Assembly: GCF_000003815.2 (NCBI RefSeq) | Contig: NC_049988.1 | Location: forward strand, 19,981,712 to 20,045,711 | DNA from: Branchiostoma floridae | Lineage: Eukaryota; Chordata; Leptocardii; Amphioxiformes; Branchiostomatidae | Length of the DNA stretch: 64,000 nt | Direction: 5' to 3' | In this document: positions 1,987 through 54,900 of the stretch, in pieces | How positions within the stretch are numbered: position 1 is the first letter of the stretch | How the letters are laid out: the number at the start of each line of letters is the position of its first letter | Position numbers and translations under genes: made by a program | Notes under the pieces: generated by a model | The model's database searches: none | What the model was told of the DNA's origin: nothing | What the model saw: the letters and a program-made list of their open reading frames with translations, nothing else

Positions 1987-4900
1987 CTGGAATGTTGGGG
2001 AAATGGATACATTGAGCATGTACCAGAACATTTAATGCTCCCACTGCGTATTGATGTACTTACAAGTTCTTCATGTGAAATTTAAGTTCGTGCCAGCTTT
2101 AAAATTTGAATGTATGGAAGTTGTGACTATGGTGAAAAGTGTCAAACGAAAAGGCACACCTGCTTGTCACATCCAGCATCTACCCATTGTTGCCTGCTCC
2201 GATCGTAGCCATCTGAACATCTGCAGGAGAAAATACGTAGGATGAAAACATAATTCATACGTAGCTGCTACTATAAAATGTTTGGTATTACTAGTATGCT
2301 TCTAATGGGCGTCGAAGTCGCCTGACGGTTTGCGATAAGAGGATACGTCTTACTAGTATTCTGTAGATGACCTACTTGATGTAAGTTCTAGTTATTTTCT
2401 CCATACTTTGACATATCATGGGGCATTATCTACAACTCGAAAGTTAAAGAACAACTGGTACCTGTGAAGCGATGGACACCAGCGGCAGTTGAAGCCTGTT
2501 TTAGACCTGAGACAGCTGTTGCAGTCTCTGAACTGGCCACATGCTGAAAGTAGATACACCAAGTTATCATTATTGTCATAATTGTACTAACCAAGAATGC
2601 TCTCGTTTTCATCTATTTTATCCATCCATTTACTGAGGATTAGACAGGAAGAACCTTCTGCGCAAAACAACATAAGATAAGAATGTCACTTAAAATCAAG
2701 GGGTACTAAATTTGATCTTGTTGTTTTCTACACTCAGGTTGATATTGTAAATCACTTGGTCTTGGCAATGCTTTTTGTCACATTCAAATTAAAATAGTTT
2801 GAGGAATTGTGTCTACTAAAAGATAATGGCACGAAACGCTTACTCGGTAGTGGCGACAGCACAATGGCCGACCCTGTGGTCACCTTCCCCTTGTCCAGCT
2901 CTATGGTGTGGTACTCGTAGATTGTCGACGTCTTCCGATTCACATCTGAAACAGGAGAAATCTTTAACCTTGTCCAAAAACGAATATTTTCATAATGTAT
3001 AACATGATATAAGATATTTAAAAAATAACAGCTGCAGTACTAAGGTCAATGAACAGGTACCCAAACCTTCACTATCCGGTTTACACAACCTACCCACCTG
3101 CTAAATACCATCCCAATCCGTCCAGCGGATCTTGAGATATACTCCTTCACATCATATAGATCCCAAAAACAGTAACTCCATTTTTTATGGAGTTAACAAA
3201 CAATGAGTTACCTGAGAATGGCACCAGCAGCGCCTCCACCGTGTAGGCGTCAGAGATCCCGACCCTGACGGGGTGGGAGGAGTCGTCTATACTCGTCACC
3301 GGCTTCGGGATCTGGCGGAACAAATTACGGTTACGCCTTGCAGGAGATATCATACATGGCAATCAGCTTAACCAGCGGTGGGTTTGGGCTTAACATTGCA
3401 ATTAAGATAACATACCCATTTCTGTCAAGCAAAACGAAGACGAGGACCGTTTCTTTAGCCTGTTATTCAGATACGAGTGCTTCATAGTCTAGCGATTTCG
3501 TAAAAGCAGAGGCAAGAAGCAAAACCAAATCAATAGTTTAAAATTGACTTTGCGAGCTTAAATACATGCAGATCACAACTAAACCAGCGGAGGGCTTGAT
3601 CCTAACATTCCAATTAAGATAAGCATAGACTTTATCACAATGCTTGTGGAACGGATATGTCGTAGTGTGTGACCTGTTCTTTAGCCTATCATATTCTGAT
3701 AAGAATACTTCATAGTCTGGCAATCTCATAATAAATAGAGCCATGTAAGATGCAAAGTCGAATCAGTTTTAAAATTGACTTTGGAGCATACATACATTGT
3801 AATCAACCTCACCATCAGGGTACTCGTTCGTACCATCACAATTAAGATAAGCATAGAAATTGCTGCAAAGCTAAACGAAGATGCCGTAGACTGTGACTAG
3901 TTCTTACGTGCGTGTAGCCTATTATTCTGATAAGAAAGTGTCATAGTCTGACAATCTCGTAATAAACAGAGCCAAGATGCAAAGTCAAATCAACTTTTAA
4001 TTTAACTTTTGGAGCATACATAGATTGTAATCAAAATCACCAGCAGGGTACTCGTTCGTAACATTACAATTAAGATAAACATAGTTATTTCCACAAAACA
4101 AAATGAAGACATGATCGTCAGTGTGCGCAGCATATTATTCTGATAAGAAAGCGTTCAAGTCTGGTAATTGCGTGATAAACAGAGCCAAGATGCAAAGTTA
4201 AATCAACGGCTTCAAAACAGACTTGGCGGACATCTTTCGCCGAATAACGTCATAAATTGATTCTGATTGTCCATGAATAGCAGTTCGACCTTTCATAGCA
4301 GGGCAAAATGGGTATGACTTATGGTGAAGTGTCGCATGCAAAACTGCCTTGTCTGCCGGGAAAATTCTCTGCCCACCCTGGCTAAAAGTGTAAATTTCCA
4401 TGGTAGTAAAGTATTCCCATTTGTATACTGTTTATCTTACATTTCTACGATTTGACAGCTTGTTGAAGCTACGGTATAGCTCCACTGCATGTCACATAAA
4501 TACAACCGCACCATTACTGGAGACCTCTGGGGTTCATCAACATTTCTGTAATTACACTGTTACCCGCAATGTTCCATCCCTTTCTACACGTTCAAGGTTG
4601 GCGGTAAACTAACAACGAAAGGTCATGTCTCAAGACATTCTATAGTCGCCTCGAGCAATCGATAAAGATGATTTCCTTGGCCGCCAAGACCCAAAAGCTA
4701 AGATTACATCTCAATTACTAAGAAATCCTTTCCACGGGGTGAGCCAAAAGGCCAGAGGGTAGAGAGAGTGGGCGGTTTATTGGAGACGTTATCTAAACAA
4801 CCAAATCATTCGGGAGATCAATATATCTTTTAGTATGGGTTTCAGTTCAGAGCAAGCCAAGTTGTTTCAAGCATTTAGTGAACCTATAGCTAAGCGCCGG

Positions 4901-7900
4901 AGTTGATTTTTTCATGATCGCGTTGTCTTTGGCAAAACACTTGTTATTACATTAAGCGGTGTATCACTAAAGCCGCTGCACGGTGGTGGCATCGGTGCGG
5001 CCAAGCGATTTGACAGAGCAGTAAGCGAATCACATCGAGTGTTTTGTGTCTTTCGGCCATACGTTTTGCACGATATTTCTATTATGACGTCATTGTAACA
5101 CAAATCTAATTAGGACAGCCACCGAGCCTGCATGTTGCCCTTTATATAAACTGTAGTATCCACAGTTTCTTGTTGACATTGTTTTTTAAACTACTTACCT
5201 TTTTATAGACGAAAATAATCCGACCGTCTTGTGAGAGAGTGACTTGGAAAGTGAACGTCTGTCCTGCGAGTTAAAAAAAACTAATTATTATCAATAGAAA
5301 TAAAATGATTACAGCTTTCTGGTATATTGTTTGCTGCTGCAGTAGAAATGTTGGCACTGCGGTGACAAATATTTGAACGTTTGCTTTGTTCGCTGTTAAC
5401 CGTCTGCTTCCGATAATGTGGAAATAACTGAATAGTACCGGCTCTTGGGAACCTCAAGCTTGTGTTTAATTACCTTCCGTGTCGTCCCGTAGCCTTAGTC
5501 TGCCCCACTCCACACTTAGAGCACTTCCTGTAGAAAAAAACACAATTATCAACCATTAGGGTCGAAAAGAAAGGGCACTTGACACTAAGTCCACGTCTAG
5601 ACTTCGTCAGGAGCGATACTATGGAGACGGTCACTGGACTCTAAGGTCCTTTATTCCTTCAGTGCTCCATCATGACACGTCTGAATGATTTAGCTTCATA
5701 ATCATCATCATGTGTTGTTACTCCTCACTTGACCTGCTCTAGTCTCTTTTGCATCTCGCAGTTCTTATCCAGGTAGGGCCTAGATAGATGTTTCTGCAGG
5801 CGGTCCCTCCACCTTGTTCACAACTGGCCTCTTTTTCTCCTCCGTTAGGATTTAGCTTCAATCATTGATCAATCGCATTTTGTAACGTTTTAAAATATTA
5901 ACTTAGGGCCACAAGGCATGATAAACATCGACGTAACCGAAACAGAAAGAAGCTTTGTACTGAATACTAAAATGTACCACAAAGAGCCCGTCAATCACTA
6001 CTCTGCAAATTACATTCGAAGATTATAAACTACACAGCACGAAATATTAGGTAAAACATTAATTACTTTCCACGGAAAACTAATCAACTTCTTATCATAA
6101 TAACAGAGTAATTTACAGCTAGTCAGTAAATTAATTACGAAAGCGGAAAACAGTCTCTCTCTCCTGCTGACAAAACGGAGATGACATGCCCATAAACCAA
6201 CTAATAACCGTCAGAGAAAATATGATTAGAGCGAGGGAAAGTGATTCCTGTGGCAGAATTTTTCCTCTCGGGCATAAAAATGAAACATAATCAGTGTACA
6301 GCTAATAGAAGGAAATGTAACACGAACCTATATATTTGTAATTTAATAATATAAGATATTAGATTGTAAAATCCAACATTCATTAAGTCTCTTGTTATTT
6401 GTTGCAAGTCAAGCATACTGTGGCTTTTTAGATATAACAGCATCCATCATCTCACAAACCAAGGCCATCAGTGCAAATGATGTCCTTTTTGTCTTCGTAC
6501 ATTTTGTCCTTGAAAAATCATAAATTGTACTGATGCAACGCTCTCCCTGCCTATATACGTCTGCTGAGTAATTAAGTACTTTATAAACAAGAAAAGTACC
6601 GGTTTCGAATTCCAAAGTACATTTTGGGGAGCGTTGTTCTTAAAGATATCAGCTGAACACCGTTCACTTTTTTATAACCTGAATAAAGGTAATATGTCTT
6701 GTTCTGTATATACTATACCCTCTTTGAAATCAAACTAGCTGAAAATCTACCCAGTTGTCCTTGAATGAAAATAAAGATAAAAAGACAAAGTCGAACGGGC
6801 TACCGAATTGTTCTTAAATGAACAAAACGATAGAAAAGTCTTACCGTTATCTCGGTACCTGACCACAGACATTGGGTCCAGCCCGGGGTCAAAGTTAGCC
6901 ATGAGCGGCGCGATGTACTGTGTGGAGGCGAGGGAGTGGCTCAGGGTAGAACCAATGGACACGAAACCTGAAAAAATGTCGATAAAAGTCAGACATCCAG
7001 GTAATAATATATGCTAAAAGCGGCTACTCAAGCAACTGGATAAGATTTTGGAAACGGTCAGACGTTTTAGATGGCATCCACCATGTTTCTTCAGTGAAAC
7101 CGTCAATAGTAGGACAGTTTTCGGATATTAAGAACTTCGTCTAAGACTTAAGTTGTATCGTGATCATTGTTTTACTAGGCATGCTACCCGAATGGTTATT
7201 GATGCAAAGGAACTACATAACGCTCTACCGTAAATCAATGAGGCGGTTGATATTAAGATTACCAGGGCTACGTAAATGCAATAAAACTAGGATGTCTTTT
7301 ACATTGGCCATTCAGCAATGTGTAATCAAATAGAGAGGAAATAAAATTGACACCACATTTAAGATATAATATAATTGCAATTTTAGAAAAACCATGACGT
7401 TACGTCTGCTATTCATAAATTTGATAAGTAAGCCTGTCTGCTATGCACAATTTGATGACCTATCTTAGACAGACTCTAGACATGTTTAAATTGCGTTGCA
7501 ACCTTAATAATGCCATGGCAATGTGCCGATCTTTATTGTAAAACCACCCAGGTATGACAGTGAATACCTTATGTACACGGAAACATATCTGTGCTTCATC
7601 TATCCTGTGTTAAGGCACATGAAATAATGAATCTACCTTTGACAGCTATCGTTATATTCTTTATCGGGCTGCCATAGAACGGGAAGTCGAACGACAGACG
7701 GACATTCTGGAAAGCAATAAGGCATAGATTAGAGCAGGATTCATAAATAAGAGATACAAACAGAAATGGAGTCTACTTTGCATGATTCACAACCTCTTTG
7801 TAGAACACCGTTGAAGAGGTTCATCAGTCATGTATGAATACACTCACTGCAATATTTTTTAAACAGTGAAGGTTCGATTCCTTGCAGCACATTTGATGGT

Positions 7901-16900: not shown

Positions 16901-19900
16901 TGGTGGCTTTTCCCGTTACAAACGCCTCAAGAGAAGTAAAATTAACAGCCCGGTACCGCTCGCAGAATTTACAATGTATGAATGCTAATGATAGATCTAG
17001 ACTATTTATCTGTCTCTTGCTGCTACTTGGTTTTCAACAGTATTTGAATATTGCCTGAGTACTAGACAGGTAACTAGACTTTAAAAGCCATTTAAAAGAC
17101 TCCAAGGAAGATTTATGAAATATTGAAAGGTCGTATTTACGTCTTCGTGTGCAGAAATGTAGTTAATCAAAGTTCTATTTGCCTCCACTATTTGCCTCTG
17201 ACTGCAGAATGTCAAGGTAATACCAGATCCCGCACTACCTATTTGCAAAGTGGCACCCCGAGCCGAGATTAACATAACATATCGCCCGGACCACATCGAC
17301 ATTGTTAGCTTATCTCATGCCTCTATATATATTATACATGGTTGTCAACAGCATAAAGAAAACTGCCCGAGTACCAGACATCTAAACCTTAAAAGCCATT
17401 GAAAAATTCGACTCCAAGGTAAACTTATTAAATATTGAAAGGTCGTATTTGCGTCTACGTGTTCAGACATTTGAAGAAAGTCAATCAAATTCATGTTTGT
17501 CCCTAAAAGACTGTAGAATGTCAAAGCAAATACCAGATCCCCACTAGCTATTTGCAAAGTGGCAACCCGAGCCAAGATTAACATGACATATCGCCCGGAC
17601 TACCTTGACATTGTACGCTTATCTCATGCCTCTACATGGTTGTCAACAGCATAAAGAAAACTGCCCGAGTACCAGACATCTAAACTTCAAAAGCCATTGA
17701 AAAATTCGACTCCAAGGTAAACTTATTAAATATTGAAAGGTCGTATTTGCGTCTACGTGTTCAGACATTTGAAGAAAGTCAATCAAATTAATGTTTGTCC
17801 CTAAAAGACTGTAGAATGTCAAAGCAAATACCAGATCCCCACTAGCTATTTGCAAAGTGGCAACCCGAGCCAAGATTAACATGACATATCGCCCGGACTA
17901 CCTTGACATTGTACGCTTATCTCATGCCTCTACATTGTTGTCAACAGCATAAAGAAAACTACCTGGGTACAAGACATCTAAACTTTAAAAGCCATTGAAA
18001 AAATCGACTCCAAGGTAATTTATGAAATATTGAAAGGGCGTCTACGTGTGCAGTTAATCAAAGTTTTTTATGTCTGTATTGAGACTGAAGAATGTCATTG
18101 TAAATACCAGATCCCCCACTAACTATTTGCAAAGTGGCACCCCGAGCCAAGATTAACATAACATATCGCCCGGACTACCTTGACATTGCAAGCTTACCAT
18201 TCCCATTTATCAATAAGACATTTTCCCGGGTGGCCCTAGCCCAAGTCACGGAGGAGTAGCGACCTAGTGACTTGTGCAGAATATGTAAGCAGACTCCCGG
18301 TGTGAGTCTAACTAGTTCCTACAGTCAGCTGTAGTTGTAACTGTAGCTGTAAAGTTAGGGAAAGTGGACGACTAGACAATCCAACTTTTAAAGTATTCTC
18401 GTCTCGAATTTGCACTGTATCCATAACATTACTTCATTGCACGGCCTTTCCGCGTACATGTGTGCAGCAGTTTTCCAAAAGTTCAACACTGCTATTTTTG
18501 TCCCTATGCAACTGGGTAATGTAACATTTCAAATCCTTCATCCATTTGCAATGTCGTTGCCCGAGTAGAGCTAGAAAACCGTCACCGTTGGCTCGTAAAC
18601 CATATATCACACGGATGTTCAGTACGTGCCTTGCCTTTAGTTTGCGCGTTATCGTGGTCAGTCATAAAACTGACTCCTCGCCAATCTCAATGTGAGATAT
18701 CCTTAGATGGCCGTAGCAAAAGCTAAAAAAACTTTACTCTCCAGCTGTAGTAACTGTTATGATCTATGGGAATCTAGTCAAAGAAAGTGGACGACTAGAC
18801 AATCCAACTTTTTCAGTATTCCACTTCAACATTAAATTCACTTGATCGTGCGTTTTTTTGCATAGTGCAGCAGTTTTCCAAAATTCAAACACAATTATCT
18901 TTGTCCGTATGCCACTGATTATGTCACATTTCACATTCCCCACTTTTGGACGTCTTTGCACGAGTCGAGCTAAAAAGCCATATCACCGTTTCCTCGTAAT
19001 CCATATATCAGGAGGGCGCACAGAACTTGCCTTATCTTTACTTTGCGCGATTTCGTGGTCATAAAATTGACAAATACCACGGCTCAACACGGACTTCTTG
19101 CCGTTCTCATCGCTGTCCAATACTAACATCCTTGGCATTCAACCATTTGTCATTGTGAGACGTCCTCAGATAGGCGAGCCAAAGACAAAAAGCTGTAATG
19201 TCCTGCTGTAGTAACTTTTATAATCTGTGGCAGTGAAGACAAAGAAAGTGGACGACTAGACAATCCAACTTTTTTCAATCTCGTCTTTCAATCATCATTA
19301 AATTCACTTGATCCTTAACATTTGAGGACAGTATCTAACCATTTGTCAGTGTGAGATGTCCGCTGATGGCAACATTCTCCACTTTTGGGCGTTTTTGCCC
19401 GAGTAGAGCTAGAAAGCCATCACCGTTTTCTCGTAAACCAAACATCACGAGGATGTACAAAACGTGCCTTGCCTGTAATGTGCGCGTTTTCGTGGTCATA
19501 AAACCGACGAATACCACAGCTCAACTCGGACTCCTCGCCGTTCTTATCTCTACGGTCCAAAACTAACATCCTTGACATTACAGGAGTGCCCGACCATTTG
19601 TCAATTTGTGACGTCCCCAGATGGCAGAGCCAAAGCCACAAAACAATAATGTCCTGCTGGATACGCGTCCTGAATGCGCAAACAGGCTATCCGTCTACTC
19701 TCCCTATCTTTTCCTGGCATCCATTACGAGAGGTACTGTCTGTGCGTACTCAGACACACTGTTTCACCGTTAGCCATGTCATTTCTGCTTCTGTTTGCTT
19801 TTAGCGGTTGGCAGAAGACCAAATGTGAAAAAGGGTTACGTATCGACCGGATGTCGACAGGCATGGGTACATCAAAGAGACTGCTGGACGCTGTGATGTC

Positions 19901-22900: not shown

Positions 22901-25900
22901 GACGAATGCGTCTTACCATGCCCTATGCAAATCTTCAAGATGCTTTTGCAGATTTCGGCAGTTAGTTTGAGTCGTTCATCTATCAGTTCCTGGCGACGGC
23001 GACACAGGCGGTAATGCTTCTTCCAGGTATAATTGCTAGCGGTTAATTAAGGCAATGCCCCGTGGATGAAGACTCGCCTGACACGACGGGCGTCTTTTGC
23101 GTCGCATTCAATACACGTTAGGTAGTCGTTAACTCGGGGATACGCCTGGCTGTGCGTGTACATCATCGGTAAGTTATTCACTCCCAGGGCTGCCCTTTGG
23201 TAATGAATGGTGTGCTGCGCCGGAAGTTGAGTTACGATACTTAATCCTAAAGTGTACTCTAACTACTTTTTAAGAAAATATGGGGGAAGTCTTAACGCTA
23301 ATCCTTATTAAGATGCCGTTAAGGATTTCAGCAACTGCGCAAATGAGTAAATCAGTTGAATTCCGTCTCTAGGTGATGTATCTACAATCAGCGTACCTTG
23401 AGTACCAATAAATAAACGAATTCGCCTGGTGGGTTCTGTTCAATCTGCAAACTCCCTCAAATACAGTACAGTATATACGTAGAAGCCAGTTAATTGCACA
23501 ACGGATAAATGCACACTTCTGTTAACTCCACAGATCACAAAAGTCACAAACCAGTGCGGTCAAGCTTGATTACTTCGCATTATTGCACCAGCCGGATAAG
23601 TGCACAAAATACGCTGGCAAAAAGGCTGTGCAATTAAACCGCTTCTACTGTACTCTTCAGTTTTCAGTGACTTCGTTTACTTTCATTAACGCGCAAACCA
23701 AGGTTAGAGCGACATGCATCTCTCTGGGATTCAAACCTTTAACCCTTGTTCCAGAAAAGGGATTGCCAAGCACCGAACCACCGCAGGCTACACTGACCTG
23801 GTCCTTCCCAATTATCCCCCCACTGTAACATCCATACATCACCACGCACAGAAATGGCCACCTGTGGAAACATCATGATGAGTCTATCACACAGGATAAG
23901 CTCTTCATCCCCCCGAAGAAATAAGGCTGCGTTCTGCAGTGTGTTTCCATTGATCCGGTGTCGTAAAACTGATCCAGTGTCAGTGTCTCGTCTGTGGTAA
24001 TGGCATCTGATGGTTGGTGGCGTCAGGCTAGGATCAGGCACCCGATTCCCGGACCAGAGGAACAATACACAGACAATGCAAGTGGATTTGTAAACCCTGC
24101 TGTCATCGTCTGTTTGATTTACTGTTGTAGTTTAAAGAAATAGCATTCAATTACAAAGACTGGTTTAATTGACATGTCTTTGTGAACTACAGCAATAACA
24201 TAAACAGAACTGAACAGACACCCCATTCCAAAATCATCAGGACAGAGTGAAGTAACGGACGTCATTTTGTTAAGTGATCGCGTTTTCGTCGTTTGTCATA
24301 CTGTTGTAGTTGAAAAGAAATGGCATATTAACACGGATATTTTTATTTGCATATAACTATCGCATAATCTTTATTGTGTCTGTGGTGCGTTTTTAAATAT
24401 GCCTTTTAGTATAGAAACATATTTTACTTAATGGACGAGTACTAAGGTCTAAACTTGAGCACTCAGCTCCAGCGGTTGAAACAATAACTATGTACAGGCT
24501 GGGCTACGAAACCACATTTTTCAGGTAAGTTCTCCAGGACTACAAGAACCTAGGTCAATGACTGCGCATGTATGATTTGTTGGCAACGAAAAACTGCATG
24601 ATTCATAACCGTGCATTCACATCCGTCCATAGATTAGATTACTGCCAAAAGTTACGACAGGTAATCCACTCAGCCGAAACAAAAGCTACATCAAACACGA
24701 GAACCCAGCTCTACTGACAACACTCACCCGATAACGGCAATATTTTTAAGCATACAATATCTGAAAACATGCTTCACAAAACTACCATGGCCTCAGGCAA
24801 GTAGCCCTGTAAATTAGAGTTAGATGCTATTGTGTACTTAGCAAGCGTATTTTTCTAACAGAAATAAAAACCTAATCTTGTAGTTATCATGTATATCACC
24901 AAGAAAAACATAGAATAGAGCTTCATACAAAGTTGAATTTTCAGCATACAATATCTGAAAACATGCTTTACAAAACAGGCCTCAGGCAAGTAGCCCTGTA
25001 AATTAGAGCTAAATGTCACCGTGTACTTGGCAAGCGTATTTTTCTAACAGAAATAAAAACAGAATCTTGTAGATATCAATATATCACCAAGATAAACATA
25101 GAATAGCGCAAATGGATAACCCTTCATACAAAGTTTAATTTCAGCATACAATATTTAAAAACATGCTTTACGAAACAGGCCTGAGGCAAGTAGCCCTGTA
25201 AATTAAAGTTGAATGTCACAATGTACGTAGCAAGCGTATATCATATCAGTGATATAAACTGAGCCTTGTAGTAATTGATATATCACTAAGATAAACATAG
25301 AAAAGAGCTTCATACAAAGTTCAATATTCAGCATACAATATCTGAAAACAAGCTTTACAATACTGGCCTTAGGCAAGTAGCCCTGTGAATTAGAGTTGAA
25401 TGTCACCAGGTACTTGGAAAGCATACTTTTTATCAGAAATAAAAACTGTATTTTGTAGATACCAATATGTAACCAAGATAAACATAGAATAGAGCTCACA
25501 AATAGCCCTTCATACAACGTTCGCACTATCTAAAGAAAGATATATTTTGTTCAACACTGCTTTGTGAAATAATCATGCTTTCGTACAAGCCCTTCTGCTC
25601 GTAAAGGGATAAAATCTTTGAGATTCAAAACATACCTCCCCGAAGATTGCCTTAATGAATAGATGATTAAATGATCCGAGCTTGTGGTCGTTAAAACCCT
25701 TAATTAACTGCGTGATTTGTCCATTGGGACTTGGGAGCTTATTCATGTTTATTCCAACTGCGTACTGGCTGTATACAATTCATATAGAAAACGCCACGCA
25801 GTATATTCTGTACTTAGTGCGTATTCCCATTATGAAACTATATACTTACTGTATATAATGTATAAAAAAGGTGCTATGAATTATATTCTGTACTTGGTAT

Positions 25901-28900
25901 GTATTCTAATCAGATAACGACATATACTAAACTTAAGCTTCATCTCAACACTTTAGGATAAGCATTGGTGTCGTCGGTAGGCAGTCTTGTACTGCCAGCT
26001 AAAGTTTGCTAGAACATACTTCAAGAACTCACAAATTTTGTCACACGTCAACGAATCTTTGCTATGAGCACTCCCACCGGAAAACATCGCCCTTGACGTA
26101 ACGTCAACCTCACAGATTCACGCATTAATGTTATTAAGAATCTGCCAGTCTTTTGTGACAGCTTCAAGCATCGAGGGAAAAGCTGCGCGGCTTTATGTAC
26201 CAAAGAAGTGCGGAGATTTCTAATAAAGCAGTTCGGAAATGAGCCAATTTGTATGCAATCCACCGAGGTTTGACTGATGGTCCGCAATCTGGCGTCGGAC
26301 CGTAATGAGCTTTGATGAAGGAGTGCTGACTGATATTGCTTGTCATCAGGAGGTACGGAGTACAGTGTTTTATCAGCGTTACGGAGACCTTGGATAGTTC
26401 AAGAATTAAACATAGCGGAACATAAGATATAATTATAGAGACGCTCCGAAGTTTGATTTTTGATAAGGTACACATACCGGGCAAGAAGTGCTGACTGATA
26501 TTGCTTGTCATCAGGAGCTGCAGAGTACAGTGTTTTATCAGCGGTACGGAGACCTTGATTAGTTCACGAAATAAACATAGCGGAACATTAGATATTATAG
26601 AGACGCTCCTAAGTTTGATTTTTGATAAGGTACACATACCGGGCCGGGCAAGAAGTGCTGTCTGATGTTGCTTGTTATTAGGAGCTGCAGAGTACAGTGT
26701 TTTATCAGCGGTACGGAGACCTTGGTTAGTTCACGAAATAAACATAGCTGTACATTAGACATATTATAGAAAAGCTCGGAAGTTTGGATTTGATGCAGTG
26801 CACATACCAGACAAGGAGTGCTGTCTGATATTGCTTGTCATCAGTGGGTACGGAGTAAAGTGTTTTATCAGCAATACGGAGACCTTGGATAGTTCACGAA
26901 ATAAACATAGCGGAACATTAGATATTATAGAGACGCTCGGAAGTTTGGTTTTTGGTAAGGTACACGTACCATGCAAAGAGTGCTGACTGATATTGCTTGT
27001 CATCAGGAGGTACGGAGTACAGTGTTTTATCAGAGACCTTGGTTAGTTCACGAGTTAAACATAGCGAAACATTTGATATATAGAGACGCTCGGAAGTTTG
27101 GTTTTTGATGAGGCACATATACCATGCAAAGAGTACTGACTGGTATTGCTTGTCATCAGGAGCTGCAGAGTACAGTGTTTTACCACCGTTATGGAGACCT
27201 TGGTTAGTTCACGAGATAAGCATAGCGAAACATTAGATATTATAGAGACTCTCGGAAGCTTGGTTTTTGATACAGTACACATACCAGGTAAGGACTTAGT
27301 ACAGTGTTTTATCAGCAGTACGGAGACCTTGGTTAGTTCACGAAATAAACATAGTGCGGAACATTAGATATTATAGAAACGCTCAGAAGTTTGGTTTTTG
27401 ATAAGGTACACATACCGGGCAAGAAGTGCTGTCTGATGTTGCTTGTTATTAGGAGCTACAGAGTACAGTGTTTTATCAGTGGTACGGAGACCTTGGTTAG
27501 TTCACGAAATAAACATAGCGGAACATTAGATATAATTATAGAGACGCTCCGAAGTTTGATTTTTGATAAGGTACACATACCGGGCAAGAAGTGCTGTCTG
27601 ATGTTGCTTGTTAGTAGGAGCTACAGAGTACAATGTTTTATCAGCGGTACGGAGACCTTGGTTAGTTCACGAAGTAAGCATAGCTGAACATTAGACATAT
27701 TATAGAAAAGCTCGGAAGTTTGGATTTGATACAGTGCACATACCAGACAAGGAGTGCTGTCTGATATTGCTTGTCATCAGGGGGTACGGAAACAGTGTTT
27801 TATCAGCGGTACGGAGACATTGGTTAGTTCAAGAAATAAACATAGCGGAACATTAGATATTATAGAGACGCTCAGAAGTTTGTTTTTAGAAAGGCGCACA
27901 TACCGGGCAAGGTCTCGCTCCATGTACTATTACTCGTCGTTTAGAAAAGAAAACCAACGGTCTTAAGATATAGAGACGCCCAGAACTTTGGTTTTAGATA
28001 AGGTGCACATACCAGGCAATGTGTCGGGCCAAGTCCTATAATTTTCCTTGTAGACAATGGAGTACCAACAATCCTAAGTATCCGTTGTCTCTGTAGGGAA
28101 CGGTCAATTACTAGAATTGATCGGCATATACCAATTAAGTTTTGGTACGCGGTTGGCATGTTAGATACTGCTGGTCGGTATTTAACGACCTCCCTTTTGG
28201 ACTAGAGGCCAAAAGGTCAAATCCCGTATCAATCTTGAACTTAACCTGGAAAGGTTCTGATGGGACAATGGTAGCCAATTCCTGTTGTCCACTGCATTCT
28301 TTCAAAATGAAGAAAAATTCTTTTGACATAAAACTGCCAATTATTGATATCGGTATCTTGTTTTCTGTACGCCATTGAGAACCATTTCCATTGTCATTTG
28401 TTATATCCAAAGAAGCCTCTCTAATTTACGCGTAAATTAGATAATCCCAATACCTCTCCGTATCATTGAGATTATTTAATCCACATAATGTAATAATCCA
28501 CATATTATAATCTACATTATGCAATTATATGCAATCCACGTTACCCAATGTGCCATAAAGGTAGGAAAGGGTCTAAGGTGCTTCGGAACTTCCCTATACC
28601 AAGAGAAAATCCACAGACAGCCACATAAGATAGTCTCCAAACTCCCTCAGCAACATTCAGCTTGAGCACATTTATAGAACCCGTAAAGAAACGTATTTCC
28701 GACGTTAGTTTGACGGCGCTATCGATCCTAACTCTGAGACGGTTTGTAAAGTTTAACTGCTCCAGTGTTCAGGTGCACAGAGTCTGAAGTGACTACAAGC
28801 GTCCTTTTTTTTAAAATCCGAGGTGCGTGTGACGACACTATTTTTGTCACATCCATTTCAGCATTCGAACACTGCAGGACTGCAAACGTAAAGCTGGTCT

Positions 28901-31900: not shown

Positions 31901-34900
31901 TAAGTAGTGGGGATGTGATGCTATCTGAACATATCTCTAGTTCTCTATTGGTCAGGCGACATGAAATGTTGCCTATATAACCAAGTGCTATCTTTACGGG
32001 ACAGCCTGAACTTTTATCATGAATTAAAGTTGTTTCTTAAGGTGCAAGGAACGGACAGATTTTACCTCAAGAACCTGCAAAACCCCTGAAACACCAACAC
32101 TTAACAAGGCTGTGTTTGAAACTCCGATCCTGTGGTTTCATAGCGAGATTGTTAACTACTATGTAAGAGCATGTTGTATCATCGAAATCCCAAGGCAACA
32201 ATGTATAGATGTCGCCAGGCTTTGCGTGTGTCTCGGCCTGTGCAGGCCTTATCTCCGGCCTGCTTACTCCCAGCGATGGTGTGTTTGGTTTTATTTGTTT
32301 GTCTCGCATACACAGCAATTCACCTTAAGGTGTAACACACCAGGTTTGTACTAAATAGTGTAAACTACATATCTGGACGGATTTATTTAATCCACTCACA
32401 CTGAGAAGGACCCCTACTCTGTTAGATAAGTGCAGTGGGCTCTTCAACGTGCTTGAGGTGTGGCTCTTCTTAAACTGACGATCTCCAGTTAAAGTCCTAT
32501 CGGAGGGACGGCCCTAAACAAAGCTATAGCTAGGTACTCATTTACACCTGAGTAAAGTGAGTAAAGTCGTGTGAGGTGCCTTTCCAAAGGGCACAATACG
32601 AGTATCGGTGACACGGCAGGAATCGAACTAGAGACACACGCTGCCGCTGCGCCACGAGATCTCACACGTACGTTTATTCTATATTGTAGTATGACACACT
32701 TATTCAGCCTTCGGGCGGTGACTGTAGTGATACGGATTTCTCAATAAACCTTTGCTACATTCCAACGATGGTCACGGAGAGTGATACCGTTATCGGCCGT
32801 GCCCTACTCGGCAGCTGACCCGCATCGCTCTCCACACGCCGCCCGGCACTTACCGGAGATTTCCGCGCCGTTTCCTTTTATGTTTTCGTCGTATACAATA
32901 ACGCAAAGCTCGCCATAAAGTTTAACTACCGGATATTGGGGCCTACTTTTCGCTCTAATTGGATTCTTTGTACTCGATTCCTTTTTGAATACTTAACGTA
33001 AAAGAACCGGCAAGATACCATTATGATAGTTTCTTACTATATATTGCACTTGCGTTTTCATGATCATTGAACTAAATATAGGTATGGTGTTTCCTTCTAT
33101 GTTCATGCAAGAGTAAACGTCATCATTTTTTCATCTTGTTATCAATAGAATAATATGATAACGTGTAAGGCTAATAACGTCCCATTTCCGAACCGAGGCC
33201 CGGTCCTACTGTTTGTGGAAAAGACAAATACGAATCGGATAGATATACACAAATAATACCCGGCACGACTATTTCTTTTTACTTAGTCTTGGTGTCTTTA
33301 TATCATACATTTCGTTACCGAACGTTGCACTGCCGGGCCCCGGTTTTGAAATGTGACGTAGGCTTTAGATGGTTCACACAATGCGCCATTCTCTTTGAAA
33401 CGATATGTGAGTAGTGTTCTGATCTTTCCATCAAGCGAATCCTGTCTGTATCTCTTTGTTTTACCGTCTGTCTTAGATGATTTAAAGCTGATTTTGTCTT
33501 TGCCCTAATGGGTACAGAGATGCTGATAATGCAAACAATAAATTCCACCAATAAATCACGCACAGTGACTAAAACAAAACCACTCAGGTTGAAGAGAACT
33601 CTCTACGATGTGCATGTATCCCTTTGTTTTATTGTCTATCTCACATGATCCTCTCTGTCTCTGAAGATGATTTAAAGCTGATTTTGTCATTACCCTAATA
33701 GCTACGTACCGAGATACTAATACAAACGATAAATTCAACCAATAAATCACGCACAGTAACGAAAACAAAACCTCTCAGGTTAAAGAACAGTCTCCATACG
33801 ATGTGTATGTATCTCTTTGTTTTGCAGTCTATATTACATGATTGATAGCTTATTTTGTCTTTGCTCTAATGGGTGCCGAGATGCTATGAGAGAAACAATA
33901 AATCCCATCAATAAATCTACAGTGACGAAACAAAACCTCTCAGGTTGAAGAAAAGTCCCTCTACGATGTGTCTGCATCTGTTTTACTATCTCAGATGATC
34001 TTCTCTGAACTGAAAATGATTTAAAGCTGATTTTGTATTTGCCCTAATATGTTCGCACGGAGATTCTAATGCAAACAATAAATTCAACCCATACATCAAG
34101 TATATTGACGAAAACAAAACCTCTCAGGTGGAAGCGAAGTCTCTCTACGATGACAAACGAGGCCCCCATTCTAACTAAAGCTGCTACTTCCTGCAGGGGA
34201 CCCTGCCTACGTGATAGGAAAGGTAAAATCGTGATACTAGTAAGCTAGAACATATTTCGGGGCTCGAAATGCCACCTGTATATGCAGGTTAGTGCAGGTA
34301 AAATTGGAGCTGTGCAGGTACTTCTGGTGTCTACCTGCTCTTAACCTGCACTGGTCCATGTACTAGGTTTTATACATAAAAGTTCTATGATGTAGGTGTA
34401 CATAAAATGTACAAGGATTGTTATCAGCTGCATTGAATGTCACCACCTATGAAGTATAAAAGAAAAAATAGTGGTGCAGGTAAAATTTGTCTGGTGCAGG
34501 TAATTTTCAGTGATGATATTTATTAGCATGTCCCTTCCCATGTGGGCTAAATGCAGCAAATCCCATGATGGGATATTAAAGACTAGAAACTATTACATGT
34601 GGTATTATAGTTGAATAAGCAATACATCTTGAGCAATGCTATCACATTTTGTCCATTCTGCCCAAATGAGATCGAAAACGAACGTCACTTCGTTATGGAA
34701 TGTTCTCGATATGATGATAAACGCACAGAGCTGTTCACATTACTTTCCACTTCCTCTAAAGACTTTGCTACTCTCTGTTCGATAGATAAATTCAAGTACA
34801 TTCTGGGGAGCGATAATCCACATTGTGTACAAGTAGGCAAATATATCCACGATTGTTTATACCGTAGAACCAATAGTGTAAATGACATGCTAAACCCTTT

Positions 34901-38329: not shown

Positions 38330-38814
38330 CGTGAAAATAACAACAGCCGGGGATTCAGCACTAAGGAAAGTACCCATGCGTCACCAATGGAGCTTGCATG
38401 AAGATGTATGTCTGTGGCATTTACATCAGCTCGTGATGTACGATTATCTATGGGGCACGTTCTTCAGAACATTCGTCTTGAGAAATATCTTGGCTGCCGT
38501 TGAAGATAAGGCAAGGAGAAGTACACGATATATCAGGGAATGGTATTATAGTTCTTGCATTGCGAAGAGTGTGCCTTTCACTGTTCGCTAGGGGCATGGC
38601 CAATGGCTGCCCATCTTAAAATGCCAAGTTAGCTTGATGCTTGCATATTGTGGCGGATGCTTTTAGAACGGAGAAGACTACATTTTAACTTAGTAGCTAC
38701 AACGTCATTTGCGACCATTACATACAGTTATAATTATTATCTCAAGTTAGTAGATTTAGAAAAAAGGTACCAAGAGCCTAAGACGAACCGAAGAGAACCA
38801 TAGGATAGCAAACG

Positions 38815-39130
38815 AAGTTCTACAAAAACAACTTGTTAGAATACCCATAGGTAAATAAGTCGTAAAGATCAAGTTGGGAGATTCAGAAAATACATGTAAA
38901 CCATGAGTCTTTGACCAGTTAGAGATAACTATAGTATAACAGACGCAGTTTTGTAAAAACAACTAGCTAGAACATCTATAAGTAAATGACTCGTCACGAT
39001 CAAGTTGGTATATTAAGAAATTACATGTATCAATAGTCTGTGACCAGCTAGAAAGAACTATACTATAACAGACGCAGTTGTCCAAAAACAACTTGTTAGA
39101 ATATCTATTAGTAAATGACTCGTGATCGAT
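38815..39130. repeat. Tandem repeat, unit about 130 bp, three copies
   Basis: AAAAACAACTTGTTAGAATA or a variant occurs at 38823, 38955 and 39081. TAAATGACTCGT, GATCAAGTTGG and ATAACAGACGCAGTT lie between, in constant order. Confidence 0.8.
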
Positions 39131-44333: not shown

Positions 44334-45558
44334 AGGGGTGGGTACCTGTACGGTGTACCGGTACAAAACCGTTTTTGTCTTGCTGGACCGTTCCGGAAAA
44401 ACCGGACCTGAAAAAAATTAGGTGGAACGGATATTGGACCTATTAGAAAATGATACATGTATTATATGATCAGGTATTCATACGTTTAGAGCGAGGCTTA
44501 CCGGTCGAGGAAAATAACAAAAGCGGAGTAGAGTAGAGTCTTTAGTCATTTCTACCAAGTTTTACAGTAAATCGTACAGACGCAGTGGGCGTTGTAGGAT
44601 TTTAAAACGCCAGTGGGAGTCTGATAACAGATTCCATTGTAGCGAAATGGACCGTTGTTTTCTATTCACTAGTTCACATACTGAATCAGGTACAGAATCA
44701 GGGCCGGACCTAGACCTTATCTTTTGGACCTGAACCGGGTCTGGAGCTGAACTTTCTGTACCGGTGTGACAGCGATCTCGCCCCCCCCCCCCCACCCCAC
44801 AGCGATCTCGCCCCCTTTAGCGTTTTCGCCCCCCCGCCCCCAAGAGCAGCTGGTTACTACATATTACAGGTGCGCTACCTGGTACTATACTGCACCTGGG
44901 GAGTAACGTATATGGTGTGTTACCTGGTACCTATATGGCACCTTATTACCGCACCGTAAGAAGTCATACCTCGAAAGTCGATACTATATTGTTCGGTGCA
45001 AACATGACATTGAAATGAAAAAGACAATTTTTGCAGCTGAGGTGGCATAAAAACAGTGCTACTGCGAACGTATAAATCAACACCGTCTATGGTACGGAAT
45101 ACGTCAGCTATATGTTTTAAATTTGTCACAGTGTTTTCTTTCTTGTGCTGGAAACATTTCCAAAGCACTAACAAAAACACACGTGAATAATAGTTTCTCA
45201 TTATAAACACTATCTACGCGCAAGTTGATATAGCTGTTGCTAAATGCTACACAAACACTGGTAAAGTACCTGTCTTAAGACACACGGGTAAACGCATNNN
45301 NNNNNNNNNNNNNNNNNNNNNNNNNNNNNNNNNNNNNNNNNNNNNNNNNNNNNNNNNNNNNNNNNNNNNNNNNNNNNNNNNNNNNNNNNNNNNNNNNGAT
45401 AGCCAGTAGTCACTAGGCTAGGCCAGAATAGAAAAAAGGACTTTACGCGGGCTTGGGCCGTTTCATTTCTGGAGATGGGATAAGAGGTTTACTGAGATAT
45501 AAAGAAGCAGGGGGGGGGGGGGGGGGGGGAGATCGCTGTCACACCCGTACCCACGCCT
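44334..45558. mobile_element. Inverted-repeat element spanning the assembly gap
   Basis: Outer ends are AGGGGTGGGTAC (left) and, reverse-complemented, AGGCGTGGGTAC (right). Inside lies a second inverted pair, GGTGTGACAGCGATCTC, at 44763 and 45530. Each inner repeat abuts a long homopolymer: poly-C at 44781-44800 and poly-G at 45511-45529. The interior includes 100 Ns, so true length is unknown. It may be one element or two nested ones. Confidence 0.55.
45298..45397. other. Assembly gap (100 Ns)
   Basis: A run of 100 N bases, a common placeholder length rather than a measured size. It lies between poly-C and poly-G tracts, which probably broke the assembly. Confidence 0.98.
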
Positions 45559-45562
45559 GCTG

Positions 45563-46146
45563 ATCACGTATTACTTCTATGTTACTCGTTACGTTTCGCC
45601 GGAAAAATCAATTTGTCTAGACTGATGAAGATATTTGCATAATCCCGAAATAGGTTTAACGATCCTGTTTCGTTAGGACGTTTGCTACTCTGTTAGTCCA
45701 ATTTTTCATTATTCTCACTCTCTAATTGGCAGATTGATTTTTTTCTGCACAAACGTTTCATGAAGACAAGGTAGAAATAGCTTTTGGCTATCTCCGTAAA
45801 TAGTTTCATCAGGTTCGTATGTCACTGAATAAAAATATTCTTTTTGCACAACCATTGCTTTATTCTTACCAACGTTTCGGTGACATGCACTAGATGTGTA
45901 ACAAGGGTCTCTTTATTCAGATTTTGGCTTTGTCACCAGCTTGTTACAAATACAATGCATTTTTTTAAAAACTTTTATGCGGAAAGAGATCCTTAAACAT
46001 CCTTCTTTGCCTTGATATTTTTGCCCAATCAAGAGACTTTTGGGTTAGAAGGGACAGGTGTGGTCTGAGCTTTCTTGTTTTGATTAAAATTTGTTCCTTC
46101 CAGCGGTTTAGTTGGTGTAAGGGCAGTTTTTAGTTGGAGGGTGCTA
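45563..46146. other. No feature seen
   Basis: AT-rich sequence between the gap element and the foldback element, with no open frame of interest. Confidence 0.4.
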
Positions 46147-46158
46147 CGGGTATACCGG

Positions 46159-48568
46159 GGGAGGGTCTTTTTAGCGAATGCCCACAAACGCCCACTCTAG
46201 AGAAGTCTGGCGCGCTGCACGAATCTCATTTTTTTGCTTGGAATATGTCCACGTTGTGCTCCCATGTATTAATCCTGAGTTTCAAGTCAATCCATTGACC
46301 CGAAGTGACATAAATCAAAGTTTTCGATTCTCGATGGTCTTTTTAGCGAACGCCCAGCAAAATGTCTTTTTAGCGAATGCCCACTATATCCACAAAAAAA
46401 TCGGCCGTCGCGCAACGACACCTAAACCTACCGCCACAAACATGTTCAAGATGGTGTCCCATTGATGTGTACGGAGTTTCCGTGCTTTACAAGCATTTTA
46501 AGTCCCTGTTTTTGGTCAAAATGTACGGCGACGATACTACCATACATTAACTATAGCAATTCAAAATGGCGGGCACTAGTCATGTGACCTCCTTGCGGGA
46601 CTGTTCTATAAGTATCGCGGGAGGGACTGTTCTAGCATAGCTAATCATACAACCATTTTAGAGTGAATTCTGAACAAGATTTTCATTTCATAGTGCTATC
46701 ATCTGACTGATATTTACATTGTGGTCCTTTTTTCTGTGCTATCATTACCCAGGTTTGAGGAACTTAGTGCAAATATGGATGTTGATTCACCTCAGTGCCC
46801 AATTAATGTACAAAAGGCTCAGACACATTAGTGTTATAAACCTGACTAGGGGCAGGTAACCAATACTAGAAAAACAGCTATTTATTATTAACAATACTAT
46901 TTACATTATAATAATAACTCTTCACCAAACTGGACTTTTCTTATCTTTATTTATCACAGAAACATTGTTACAATGAGGATTTGATTAGATGAGTATCTGT
47001 TACAGTGTGTACAAACTTATTTCAAATACAAAAATGTATTTCGTTTCACTTCCTAAATATTTTTAAAGTATTGGAAGAAGTTGACACATAAACAATATTA
47101 ATTACATTATTTGTGTGCAGAAAAATGTGACCACATGCTATTAATAGCCTAATAAAATGTTGGAACATGGCACGAGCGGGCTCCTTTTCTGAGTACAGAA
47201 AGGAAATGTTTTATAGCATTTACTAGTAGTTATTACGTAGAAAATTTCGACTGTAAAATGTACCTTTATTAACATTTACAAACAAATTGTTTTTTCTCTT
47301 CTTAATAAATGACAACAATACAGGTAAGTAAGGTGTGTTTCCTTTTATAACAGGCCAGGTAAGACGCCGTACAGGTAAGTAAGGTGTATTTCCTTTCAGT
47401 ACAGACCAGGTAAAACACCGTACAGGTGAGTAAGGTGTGTTTCCTTGACTACAGACTAGGTAACACACCGTACAGGTGAGTAACGTGTATTTCCTTTGAT
47501 TACAGACCAGGTAAGACACCGCACAGGTGAGTAAGGTGTGTTTCCTTTGTCTATAGACCAGATGTTCCAACATTTAATTAGGCTATTAATAGCATGTGGT
47601 CACATTTTTCTGCACACAAATAATGCAATATATATTGTTTATGTGTCAACTTCTTCCAATACTTTAAAAATATTTAGGAAGTGAAACGAAATACATTTTT
47701 GTATTTGAAATAAGTCTGTACACACTGTAACAGATACTCATCTAATCAAATCCTCATTGTAACAATGTTTCTGTGATAAATAAAGATAAGAAAAGTCCAG
47801 TTTGGTGAAGAGTTATTATTATAATGTAAATAGTATTGTTAATAATAAATAGCTGTTTTTCTAGTATTGGTTACCTGCCCCTAGTCAGGTTTATAACACT
47901 AATGTGTCTGAGCCTTTTGTACATTAATTGGGCACTGAGGTGAATCAACATCCATATTTGCACTAAGTTCCTCAAACCTGGGTAATGATAGCACAGAAAA
48001 AAGGACCACAATGTAAATATCAGTCAGATGATAGCACTATGAAATGAAAATCTTGTTCAGAATTCACTCTAAAATGGTTGTATGATTAGCTATGCTAGAA
48101 CAGTCCCTCCCGCGATACTTATAGAACAGTCCCGCAAGGAGGTCACATGACTAGTGCCCGCCATTTTGAATTGCTATAGTTAATGTATGGTAGTATCGTC
48201 GCCGTACATTTTGACCAAAAACAGGGACTTAAAATGCTTGTAAAGCACGGAAACTCCGTACACATCAATGGGACACCATCTTGAACATGTTTGTGGCGGT
48301 AGGTTTAGGTGTCGTTGCGCGACGGCCGATATTTTTGTGGATATAGTGGGCATTCGCTAAAAAGACATTTTGCTGGGCGTTCGCTAAAAAGACCATCGAG
48401 AATCGAAAACTTTGATTTATGTCACTTCGGGTCAATGGATTGACTTGAAACTCAGGATTAATACATGGGAGCACAACGTGGACATATTCCAAGCAAAAAA
48501 AAATGAGATTCGTGCAGCGCGGACTTCTCTAGAGTGGGCGTTTGTGGGCATTCGCTAAAAAGACCATG
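46159..48568. mobile_element. 2.4-kb foldback transposable element with arms of about 1 kb
   Basis: Left arm 46159-47168 and right arm 47562-48568 are inverse copies that I estimate differ at only about 1 percent of sites. The central 47169-47561 holds a tandem array. The element is flanked by the 12-bp direct repeat CGGGTATACCGG (46147-46158 and 48569-48580), a probable target-site duplication. Each arm carries three copies of TCTTTTTAGCGAAYGCCCA near its outer end (46167, 46338 and 46364 on the left), candidate transposase-binding repeats. No transposase is encoded; mirrored open frames 46178-46465 and 48265-48492 are the same arm read twice. Confidence 0.85.
47310..47560. repeat. Tandem array at the centre of the foldback element (unit about 56 bp, five copies)
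   Basis: Units read ACAGGTGAGTAAGGTGTGTT, TCCTTTGATTACAGACCAGG and TAAGACACCGT, with minor changes. Every unit contains splice-donor-like GGTAAG or GGTGAGT and an acceptor-like pyrimidine tract plus ACAG. A 116-codon minus-strand frame runs through the array. Confidence 0.85.
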
Positions 48569-48580
48569 CGGGTATACCGG

Positions 48581-49779
48581 TTGTATCAGGAGAGAACTGT
48601 GGTCAAAAGTGAGGGTTTTTTTCATAGAGCGAGCTTTTCTCGGAGAATGGGCCAAACAACCCCCTGTTTTCTTTGAATGGTTATAAACTAGACCCAAGTG
48701 ACTTTTTAATTTTTAAGATTGAAATAAGGGTCAGTGCTTTTTTAAGCCCTCGTTCAGTCTATTTTAACATGCTTCCCTATGGGTAGCCCTATCACTGATG
48801 TAAAACCCTAACTTGTACTTTTAGATCTTCAAAACTTAATCACAACATATCTGAGTCGCACGAGTGCAATATAACGTCAAGTGAGGCGATACGACCGTAT
48901 TATTGCACGGGACAACTTTAAAGTACGAAAGTAATCTCTTACACAGATATCTATCGTCTAATCGCGACTGCATTTATACACTTGTAAGATATAATCTTGT
49001 TCGAAACGGGTGGGAAAATTCACATCCAACAGCTATTAATGAAACAAAAACGCCGTGAGACGACTGCAAGTACGTTGCTTGCAGCACCAGTGAAAGATAA
49101 TGATATGAAGTGCGCTTATGTAATCATGATAGCAAAAACGTTCTACCTGGGGTTAGTACTGTACCAAAACTAAAAGAAAAAGAAGTATATTTACATCGTA
49201 CTAACAATATTTTACCCGCCAGACTAGGTATTCATTTATTAGGTGTTACGAGTTCTGCGTGACGTCATAGATGATTGCACGTACAGTGATGACGTAGGTA
49301 GTTGACACAATTGTGGACAAACGTCAGTTAAGGAACATGATATGTGTACTGGAATCTTGACTTTAAGCCATTTTAGCATATCTTATTTGTATTTTTCTGA
49401 AAAGTCCCAAATTCGCGAATCACGGGTGCCTTAATTGCATGATAACATCAACTGTGATGCGGTGATTATAGATTTAATTGAAAGAATTTCTAGCAAAAAG
49501 CTTACTTAATCTACCATGTGAGATCAGAACGTTTTTATTGGTAGTTCAATTTACCATAGAACGTTTCGGTATGCTGCTATTGCTACCAGGAGTTGCACCA
49601 AATATAACGTGATCCTCGCTACTGTAGCTGCCATCTGCTACCACATATAATCTTTCCGCGGCAACGATATGCATGACTTCCTTAAAGTTTTACCTTATCT
49701 TACCGAAATCTCTAAACGCGAGATTTTAAATCACTTTTAGGTTTACACAGGAAACATGGCTTTCATAGTGACAAAAATG
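48581..49779. other. No gene seen
   Basis: AT-rich sequence. 49255-49310 holds several TGACGTCA/TGACGTAG sites, resembling cAMP-response elements but of unknown use. Confidence 0.35.
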
Positions 49780-50289: not shown

Positions 50290-51410
50290 CGCTTGGTCAT
50301 TGTATCCTTATTCCAATATAGGGCGGCGACCTCGCTGCAACCGAGGAATTTATCAGAGCGCCAAACAAATTTCGAAGACAAAAAACGAGTCTGTGAAAGC
50401 TTCCTATGATTTTTTTTCAGTGACGCTTTTACGTTTTGCTTGATCTTTCAAGTATGAAGTGAAGAATTACACAAACTCAATTTCAGTCGCAGTGACATCA
50501 TAGTGCTATAGAAAAGGGGCTTTAGGAAAGACAGGGTCAGGCATTTGCCGCCTGTGTTCGATACTTGTAAAAGATAGCTCTAGACATTAACACTGCATTG
50601 CTGTGGCGACCGACAACATTAACGCAAGAGACATATCCAAGGCAGTAGGTCAATCCGGTAATGGCACAAAGTCAGGACATTGGGATCTTTAAAAAAAACC
50701 TTTGACGCCACTACAAGCCATTGGGTATCTGTAGATGCGATATTAGCGCGGGTTCAACATACAAAAAAAAGACTCAAGACTCAATCCAGACTACACAAGA
50801 GTCTGTGCCATGTCATGCCATTAATTCTGCGATCATTTTAGCTTTTTCCCTAAAAAACTAAAGGCAAACCTTCCATAGAACTTAGCAAAGACTAACGTTG
50901 ATCATGACCAATGCCAATTCACTCTGATGTACTGCGACATACTACTTAATTTTGTAAGGCATTACAAGAGCAGTACGCTATTATTGCAAGCAGTTGTATA
51001 GACAGTTCATTTATTTTCAAATGAGATGAAAGTAGGCATACATCTGGACATCTTGGCATCAGCACAGCTGCTCATAAATATTTGAACAACAGATTGAGAT
51101 ATTTCAGTCTCAAGATATGCGCATTTATCTTTGTGCTATATTCAAGCACATTTGATAAAAATGTGCTTGCTACAAAAACTATTTCATTAATATTTGACTC
51201 GCCCTTGTATAACATAGTTTAATATCACGCTTTGTTCCATAGAAGAAGCTCTTGTTTGTGAGTTTGCTCCTCTAGTATGATCTTCTATTCCTGATGCAGT
51301 CGTAAAAAAGTAAAATAAATGTGAAACTTCCTACGCACGTAAAATATGGGAAAATGTCTATGCGTCCACTGGTCTGTAAAGATACTATCTGTGCACACAT
51401 AGGAGTTTTA
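50290..51410. other. No feature seen
   Basis: AT-rich, short frames only. Around 50520-50570 a GTTCGATAC motif could be a decayed SINE B-box; too weak to call. Confidence 0.3.
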
Positions 51411-52235
51411 GACAATGAATGGAGTAGGTGATAAATCAAAGTCACATACGTACATTAAATCATGTCGAATATTTGACAAGCAGCCAAATTTCCGTACTTA
51501 AACAGAATCGGTTCGTTGATGTGCTCAAAAATTTGTATTTTCCCAGAACCATCGTAGAGTGGAATATGTTATCACCAAGCACAATAGAGGCATCTTCTCT
51601 GGATATTTTTAAGAACACTAAGTCTTGCAAATAGATGTGCAAAAGCTAGGTGTGACGGGTCCTTCAGTGTAATATAACCAGCTGCTGCTGCCGCGACGCG
51701 TGCCTGTGAAGCTGGTGTGTTACGCTGAAGGGATACCGGCTATATAGATACAGATACAGATTTTAGGCAATGAAGGGATTGGGTGATGCATCAAAGTCAC
51801 ATACGTACATTAAATCATGCCTAAAAGTTGACAAGCAGCCAACTTTCTGCACTTAAACAGAATCGGTTCGTTTATGTGCTCAAACAATTCGTATTTTCCC
51901 AGAACCATCGTAGAGTGGAATATGTTATCACCAGGTACAATAGGGGCATCTTCTCTGGATATTTTTAAGAACACTTGCAGATAGATGTGCGAAAGCTAGG
52001 TGTGACGGGTCCTTCAGTGTAATATAACCAGCTGCTGCTGCCGCGCCGCGTGCCTGCGAAGCTAGTTTGTTACGCTAAAGGGTGGTTAGGCTGGCTATGT
52101 AGTTTCAGATACCGACTTTAGGCAACGAATAGAGTAGGTGATACATCAAAGTCACATACGTACATTAAATCATGCCCAACAGTTGACAAGCAGCCAATTT
52201 TCCGTACTTAAACAGAATCGGTTCCTCCCAGACTT
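51411..52235 (+). mobile_element. Tandem CR1/L2-like LINE tails (unit about 355 bp, two full and one partial copy)
   Basis: Copies start near 51411, 51766 and 52120. The first two encode a reverse-transcriptase C-terminus: FVDVLKNLYFPRTIVEWNML followed by SPSTIEASSLDIFKN in copy 1, and a matching YFPRTIVEWNML in copy 2. Each is followed by a GC-rich 3' UTR with CAGCTGCTGCTGCCGCG and GTTACGCT. Copy 1 ends in GATACAGATACAGAT, typical of CR1-type tails. Copy 3 breaks off after CAGAATCGGTTC. Confidence 0.8.
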
Positions 52236-54544: not shown

Positions 54545-54900
54545 AGGGCGCGGGCAGACGGGTCGTGCGTTCGTCGTACGATTTTGATGCTAAAGAATTT
54601 TCAAGCAGGCCTTGATACCCCTGTCACATTATCCACGATCTTCGGGCGTATCGATGGAAGATCGGCCATATTTAAGATCGACAGAGAGCTGCGCGTACTT
54701 TTCACCCGAAAACCGACCCTGTCACATATAAGCCATACTTTGTACCTTGAACAAATGCTGTGCAATATCATAAAGTTAGTATTGTATGCGAGGCTCGGAT
54801 GATTACCGCCGAGTCGTCGTCTGATCGATTTTCGCCAAATGTGACGGGTGTATGACAGGACCAACCTTCGATATGGATCCAAAACAGCATTTCGCCCTTC
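54545..54900. mobile_element. Diverged member of the GGTCACATAGGTCGT MITE family
   Basis: It starts GAGGGCGCGGGCAGACGGGT and shares CGTACGATTTTGATGC, AGGACCAACC and ATGGATCCAAAACAGCA with the copy at 12278. It is longer because of an insertion or an older form in the middle. The 128-codon open frame through it is not a gene. Confidence 0.55.

Follow-up and report, generated by a model that had tools for sequence, protein, structure and literature searches.

A probable non-autonomous foldback DNA transposon family with two unlike ends in Branchiostoma floridae

The analyzed window is a 64,000-nt stretch of Branchiostoma floridae DNA (NC_049988.1, 19,981,712 to 20,045,711), and all positions without a contig or copy label refer to it. 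The 2412-bp element at 46159–48570, here called the window copy, belongs to a family that we assign, at a probability of about 88% that covers the mechanism proposed below, to the non-autonomous cut-and-paste DNA transposons of foldback build. The family has many copies with common boundaries, target duplications and empty sites; its two ends are unlike, variants recur in both arms of a copy, and the window copy has an internal deletion. The limits of the window copy were set by alignment with 29 other fetched copies, and its features are as follows.

46159..48570, + strand: whole element, GGGAGG end left and CATGCG end right, limits from the 29 other copies
46149..46158, + strand: left target duplication GGTATACCGG, 10 bp, from comparison of copies
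48571..48580, + strand: right target duplication GGTATACCGG, 10 bp, from comparison of copies
46159..46164, + strand: G-end outer hexamer GGGAGG, three positions unlike the other end (31 G-end versus 33 C-end arms)
48565..48570, − strand: C-end outer hexamer, CGCATG read inward, from arm comparison and listed pairs
46159..47318, + strand: left arm; the right arm holds an inverted copy of its outer ~1010 bp but not of its inner ~150 bp
46165..46184, + strand: terminal motif GTCTTTTTAGCGAATGCCCA of the left arm, a likely transposase site
46337..46383 (46337–46356 and 46364–46383), + strand: two subterminal motif copies of the left arm, by sequence match to the terminal motif
47319..47561, + strand: 51-bp tandem array, 4.8 copies, single orientation in the window copy
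47562..48570, − strand: right arm, without the inner ~150 bp and without its own array, deletion join at 47561/47562 (compare L010)
48347..48393 (48347–48366 and 48374–48393), − strand: two subterminal motif copies of the right arm, by sequence match to the terminal motif
48545..48564, − strand: terminal motif of the right arm, by sequence match
45989..48791 (45989–46158 and 48581–48791), + strand: flanks, parts of another dispersed repeat hosting the insertion, from the joined-flank search

The initial annotation described near-identical inverse arms of about 1 kb around a tandem-repeat center, and both are present. In an alignment of 1007 columns the arms differ by 6 mismatches and 5 gaps (98.9% identity), and the central 51-bp array holds 4.8 copies at 47319–47561. 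The 12-bp flanking direct repeat of that description exists as an exact 12-letter match (CGGGTATACCGG at 46147–46158 and 48569–48580), but it is too long by two bases as a duplication. The target duplication itself measures 10 bp (GGTATACCGG, exact, at 46149–46158 and 48571–48580), and the outer CG of the match on the right side is the final two bases of the element's own CATGCG end. The sole run of N in the window (45298–45397) lies outside the element. Further tandem arrays with units of ~131–355 bp are found in the window at 17200–18196, 24745–25522, 26321–27911, 33443–34129, 38794–39123 and 51406–52224.

The family is present at roughly a hundred places in the genome. The assembly searched has 431 contigs and a total of 513,431,437 bases; contigs C1 to C19 measure 17–35 Mb each. 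A search with the whole element reported 367 matches (39 of 351 candidates scored), and 37 fetched places together with the window copy gave 38 sequences, designated by L numbers; both ends are present in 30 of them. Once turned alike, 26 of these 30 copies start with GGGAGG and finish with CATGCG, and these shared boundaries fix the element at 46159–48570. Copies without shared boundaries, which the initial annotation had named as evidence against its reading, are not what was found, the boundaries being common to copies at unrelated places. The genome search for the ends that it had proposed located 127 C-ends (CGCATG) and 121 G-ends (GGGAGG) with at most one mismatch, against 0 and 0 matches for the same patterns read backwards in the whole genome; therefore, the inverted repeat is not a product of chance. 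The exact 60-base C-end pattern had 95 genome matches.

Pairing was analyzed with the first 100 ends of each type, or 200 of the 248 ends. Among these listed ends there were 82 inward-facing neighbor pairs within 35 kb (44 C-G and 38 G-C), and 36 of the 200 ends were unpaired. We did not detect a pair of like ends among the listed pairs; 82 of 82 are unlike. The listed pairs span 1.1–30 kb, with 66 of the 82 at 3.2–5.5 kb; only two listed pairs are shorter than the window copy. The 2.4-kb element first described is thus real, but it is of atypical size and internally deleted.

Duplications were counted in the 30 two-ended copies; the other 8 of the 38 sequences were left out. Nineteen copies have an exact 9-bp duplication, two have an exact 10-bp duplication (the window copy and L037), and two have a 9-bp duplication with one mismatch (L017 and L032). 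No duplication was found in the other 7 of 30. Three of these (L013, L033 and L038) are without an intact end and one, L027, carries a different hexamer; the remaining three, L010, L024 and L042, are intact at both ends. When the left flank of one copy was compared with the right flank of another, 0 of 870 cross-pairs were exact at 9 bp and 2 of 870 agreed at 7 or more of 9. The 19 exact duplications have no clear sequence in common. MULE target duplications measure 8–11 bp according to PMC6446971, and the 9–10 bp found here falls within this Mutator range.

Empty sites were identified from joined flanks. The cleanest is that of L011, whose joined flanks match a neighboring duplicate without interruption (247/254) and with a single GTAAGGAGG. 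Weaker cases are L036 compared with L015, L020 within its own locus, L015 compared with L028, and L037 compared with window positions 48583–48687; window positions 54610–54744 are an unoccupied relative (87%) of the L036 insertion site. For the window copy (query 91–471), 38 places among the matches listed span the junction at 80–82% identity. One such place was read (C4, 141 bases) and matches in 127 of 150 positions; eight gap positions fall immediately ahead of the target word and inside it, so the target is inexact there. Judged by these alignments, the window element sits within another dispersed repeat. Several listed copies of this flank repeat are paired ~1.38 kb apart. The shared boundaries, the 9–10-bp target duplications and the empty sites bear out the foldback-type mobile element of the initial annotation.

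Longer copies reveal the complete anatomy: a ~1.16-kb arm, 51-bp units, units in the opposite orientation and the other arm. The motif GTCTTTTTAGCGAATGCCCA stands at the arm tip and twice more ~170 and ~200 bp inward. The family has the foldback build, with long inverted arms and internal 51-bp arrays that are inverted in copies other than the window copy. The window copy retains units of one orientation only; it is without the other array and without the right arm's inner 150 bp, which identifies it as an internal deletion that lost one inner array. Both arms were detected in 36 of the 38 sequences, and runs of N lie between the arms in 8 of these 36 (2297 bases in L011). The longest open reading frame between detected repeat pieces in the remaining 28 copies is 233 codons and lies in a stretch alignable to repeat interiors elsewhere in the family; the call of these 28 as gene-less is based on open reading frame length and repeat alignment. 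The other two sequences are L016, with a DUF6589 fragment, and L021, with a nested reverse-transcriptase-like frame. This 832-aa open frame of L021 (C4), reverse-transcriptase-like by eye, occupies 3206–5701 of that sequence and adjoins the 51-bp array of the copy. The right arm of a copy on C14 is interrupted. Because of the inner frame in L021 and the interrupted C14 arm, pair length may reflect nested insertion, and length was rejected as a mark of an autonomous copy on the same two observations.

The near identity of the arms led the initial annotation to call the element young, and this dating does not hold. Derived variants, scored against the family majority, are common to both arms of one copy at a mean of 4.2, versus 0.48 between copies (25 copies; L042 was left out for its 71.7% alignment, attributed to an insertion). 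This level of sharing was reached in 0 of 10,000 shuffles. At least one variant is shared between a copy's own arms in 22 of 25 copies and none in 3, and of 62 variants present in exactly two arms, 34 are in both arms of one copy. This pattern points to mutual correction between the arms of a copy, or to descent from sources already corrected; part of the sharing may have been inherited from source copies in which such correction had happened. Since the arms within a copy share variants, arm identity cannot be used for dating and was rejected as an age clock. L041 and L043 each have 0 differences between their own arms, and their target duplications differ from one another; they are possibly among the youngest copies, unless arm correction accounts for the identity.

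The G-end and C-end arms have three consistent differences, all in the outer hexamer (31/31 versus 33/33 in well-covered columns); two further flagged columns differ between the end types on 5 or fewer sequences. Three arms with other outer hexamers were left out of this comparison. The arms were labeled by the outer hexamer, and the independent evidence for unlike ends comes from the pairing of listed ends, G with C in 82 of 82.

These properties suggest a mechanism. A transposase supplied from elsewhere would probably bind the 20-bp motif, present three times per arm, and would then cut at the two unlike tips. Reinsertion would occur with a 9-bp, sometimes 10-bp, stagger. The mobilizing enzyme is probably Mutator-like (MULE), and a need of this enzyme for both end types may be what keeps the outer bases unlike.

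The autonomous relative with the same ends that the initial annotation had proposed to look for was not found among the listed pairs. The MULE profile PF10551 has 27 matches in the genome, 0 of them within a pair formed by the 200 of 248 listed ends; matches on C19, C139 and far C18 fall where ends are listed in part, and gene content is known for a minority of the interiors of the 5.6–30-kb pairs. Two of the 27 matches have a listed end no more than 25 kb away. Both were rejected as inner genes: C2:9786964 is 10.7 kb outside a listed G-end, and C18:7785096 is 3.6 kb outside a C-end that faces away. The C18:7781518–7785398 layout of C-end and MULE gene recurs with equal spacing at C18:7856938–7860818, 75,420 bp away (recurring positions 7856938 and 7860516). 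The two layouts are one duplicated stretch or an assembly duplication, and do not count as two cases. The transposon reading is challenged by the lack of a MULE-bearing copy among these matches and by the 7 of 30 copies without a duplication, 3 of them with intact ends.

One copy, that of sequence L016, contains part of another gene. It spans 11.2 kb at C16:4845340–4856518, with both end types and DUF6589 exons between them; the gene fragment is at L016 72–3357 (C16:4851571–4854856). The G-arm of this copy is 99.8% identical to other arms; between the two flanks of the copy, 7 of 9 positions match. These properties, and the repetition of the domain (55 matches in the genome), would fit a DUF6589 protein as the transposase and the C16 copy as a damaged autonomous member of an undescribed foldback group with 9-bp duplications. 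We consider this reading improbable. The three exons matched DUF6589 with E values of 4.4e-7 (29.4 bits), 1.6e-4 (21 bits) and 0.17 (11 bits), the last two under the cut-off of 27; at 25.7 bits, the C16 place also falls short of it in the genome search. The Pfam alignment runs to about position 296 of 410, the frame ends within a few bases of the 51-bp array, and the C-arm is broken off after ~195 bp. The C16 match is the only 1 of the 55 with a listed end at 25 kb or less, small-contig ends being mostly outside the list. Protein relatives at 43–45% over most of the 487-aa frame adjoin DUF6589 matches on C18, C10 (two) and C11; these four and an 89% relative (C10:2208184, by eye) have no listed end nearby. 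For the C16 copy, the probable explanation is a captured fragment of an unrelated DUF6589 gene, in the manner of Pack-MULEs, which pick up host genes, or an insertion. The gene is cut off at the array, and its closest DNA relative, C10:2208187 (93% over 1.08 kb), like another on C6 (85%), has no listed tip nearby by eye. Against this explanation, a donor spanning the whole fragment was not found in the genome, and ~5.7 kb of the copy is unread. Literature searches found nothing on DUF6589 and nothing relevant for PF20231.

A P-type foldback element like Galileo is a very unlikely identity for the family. The Galileo target duplication is 7 bp, and those found here are 9–10 bp; a 7-bp model matches 0 of the 30 copies. 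The P-type RNase H profile PF21787 has three genome matches, those on C6 and C11 being far from any listed end by eye and the one on C19 falling where ends are listed in part. What speaks for Galileo is that its arms too are long and internally repetitive (PMC3573991). We give next to no weight to an assembly artefact or a local inverted duplication in place of a mobile element. Large inverted repeats are often misassembled, and runs of N do separate the arms in 8 of 36 fetched sequences. The initial annotation had itself raised an artefact of the arms, which is unlikely because the arms differ and the boundaries recur at unrelated places; the target duplications and empty sites also argue against it, and for the family as a whole so does the cross-pair control (0/870). 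The data thus favor the non-autonomous transposon.

FB and FB-NOF of Drosophila and Rehavkus have long tandem-repeat arms and 9-bp duplications. The present family is like them in both respects, compared by build and not by protein. Rehavkus is named in PMC6446971. Our comparison with PMC3169594 and PMC4079207 indicates that the family is most like Tm1 and Tetris, with Tm1 closest. Tm1 is a Mutator/Foldback family of root-knot nematodes, and its copies of one kind carry the gene for a Phantom-type MULE transposase (PMC3169594). The Phantom group of MULEs is marked by a FLYWCH finger combined with a MULE domain. The likenesses described for Tm1 are short outer-end motifs that are unlike and lie beyond the inverted repeat, arms containing tandem repeats, 8–10-bp and mostly 9-bp duplications with no clear target preference, and many gene-less copies; a Tm1 copy with like ends has no duplication. 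Tm1 arms differ in consisting of 13–15-bp repeats, compared to ~1.16-kb arms plus 51-bp arrays here, and a transposase copy is known in Tm1, whereas none was found here (PMC3169594). Tetris of Drosophila virilis is likewise a gene-less foldback element with arm tandem repeats (~220 bp) and 8–10-bp duplications, but its repeat unit is another one, and three structurally complete copies compare with at least 82 end pairs here (PMC4079207). The paper states that an autonomous copy was not found and that the authors placed Tetris with Mutator from duplication length. By description, the foldback family is new relative to Tm1 and Tetris, Repbase being outside the comparison, and its kind is already known. 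Our literature search found no report on foldback transposable elements in amphioxus.

As long inverted repeats, the copies could misassemble, recombine or yield double-stranded RNA. The ~1-kb arms are kept equal, yet three bases in the outer hexamer stay unlike, which makes the family a clean test case. The 82 of 82 unlike listed pairs suggest that the moving enzyme needs both kinds of end, and Tm1 hints likewise.
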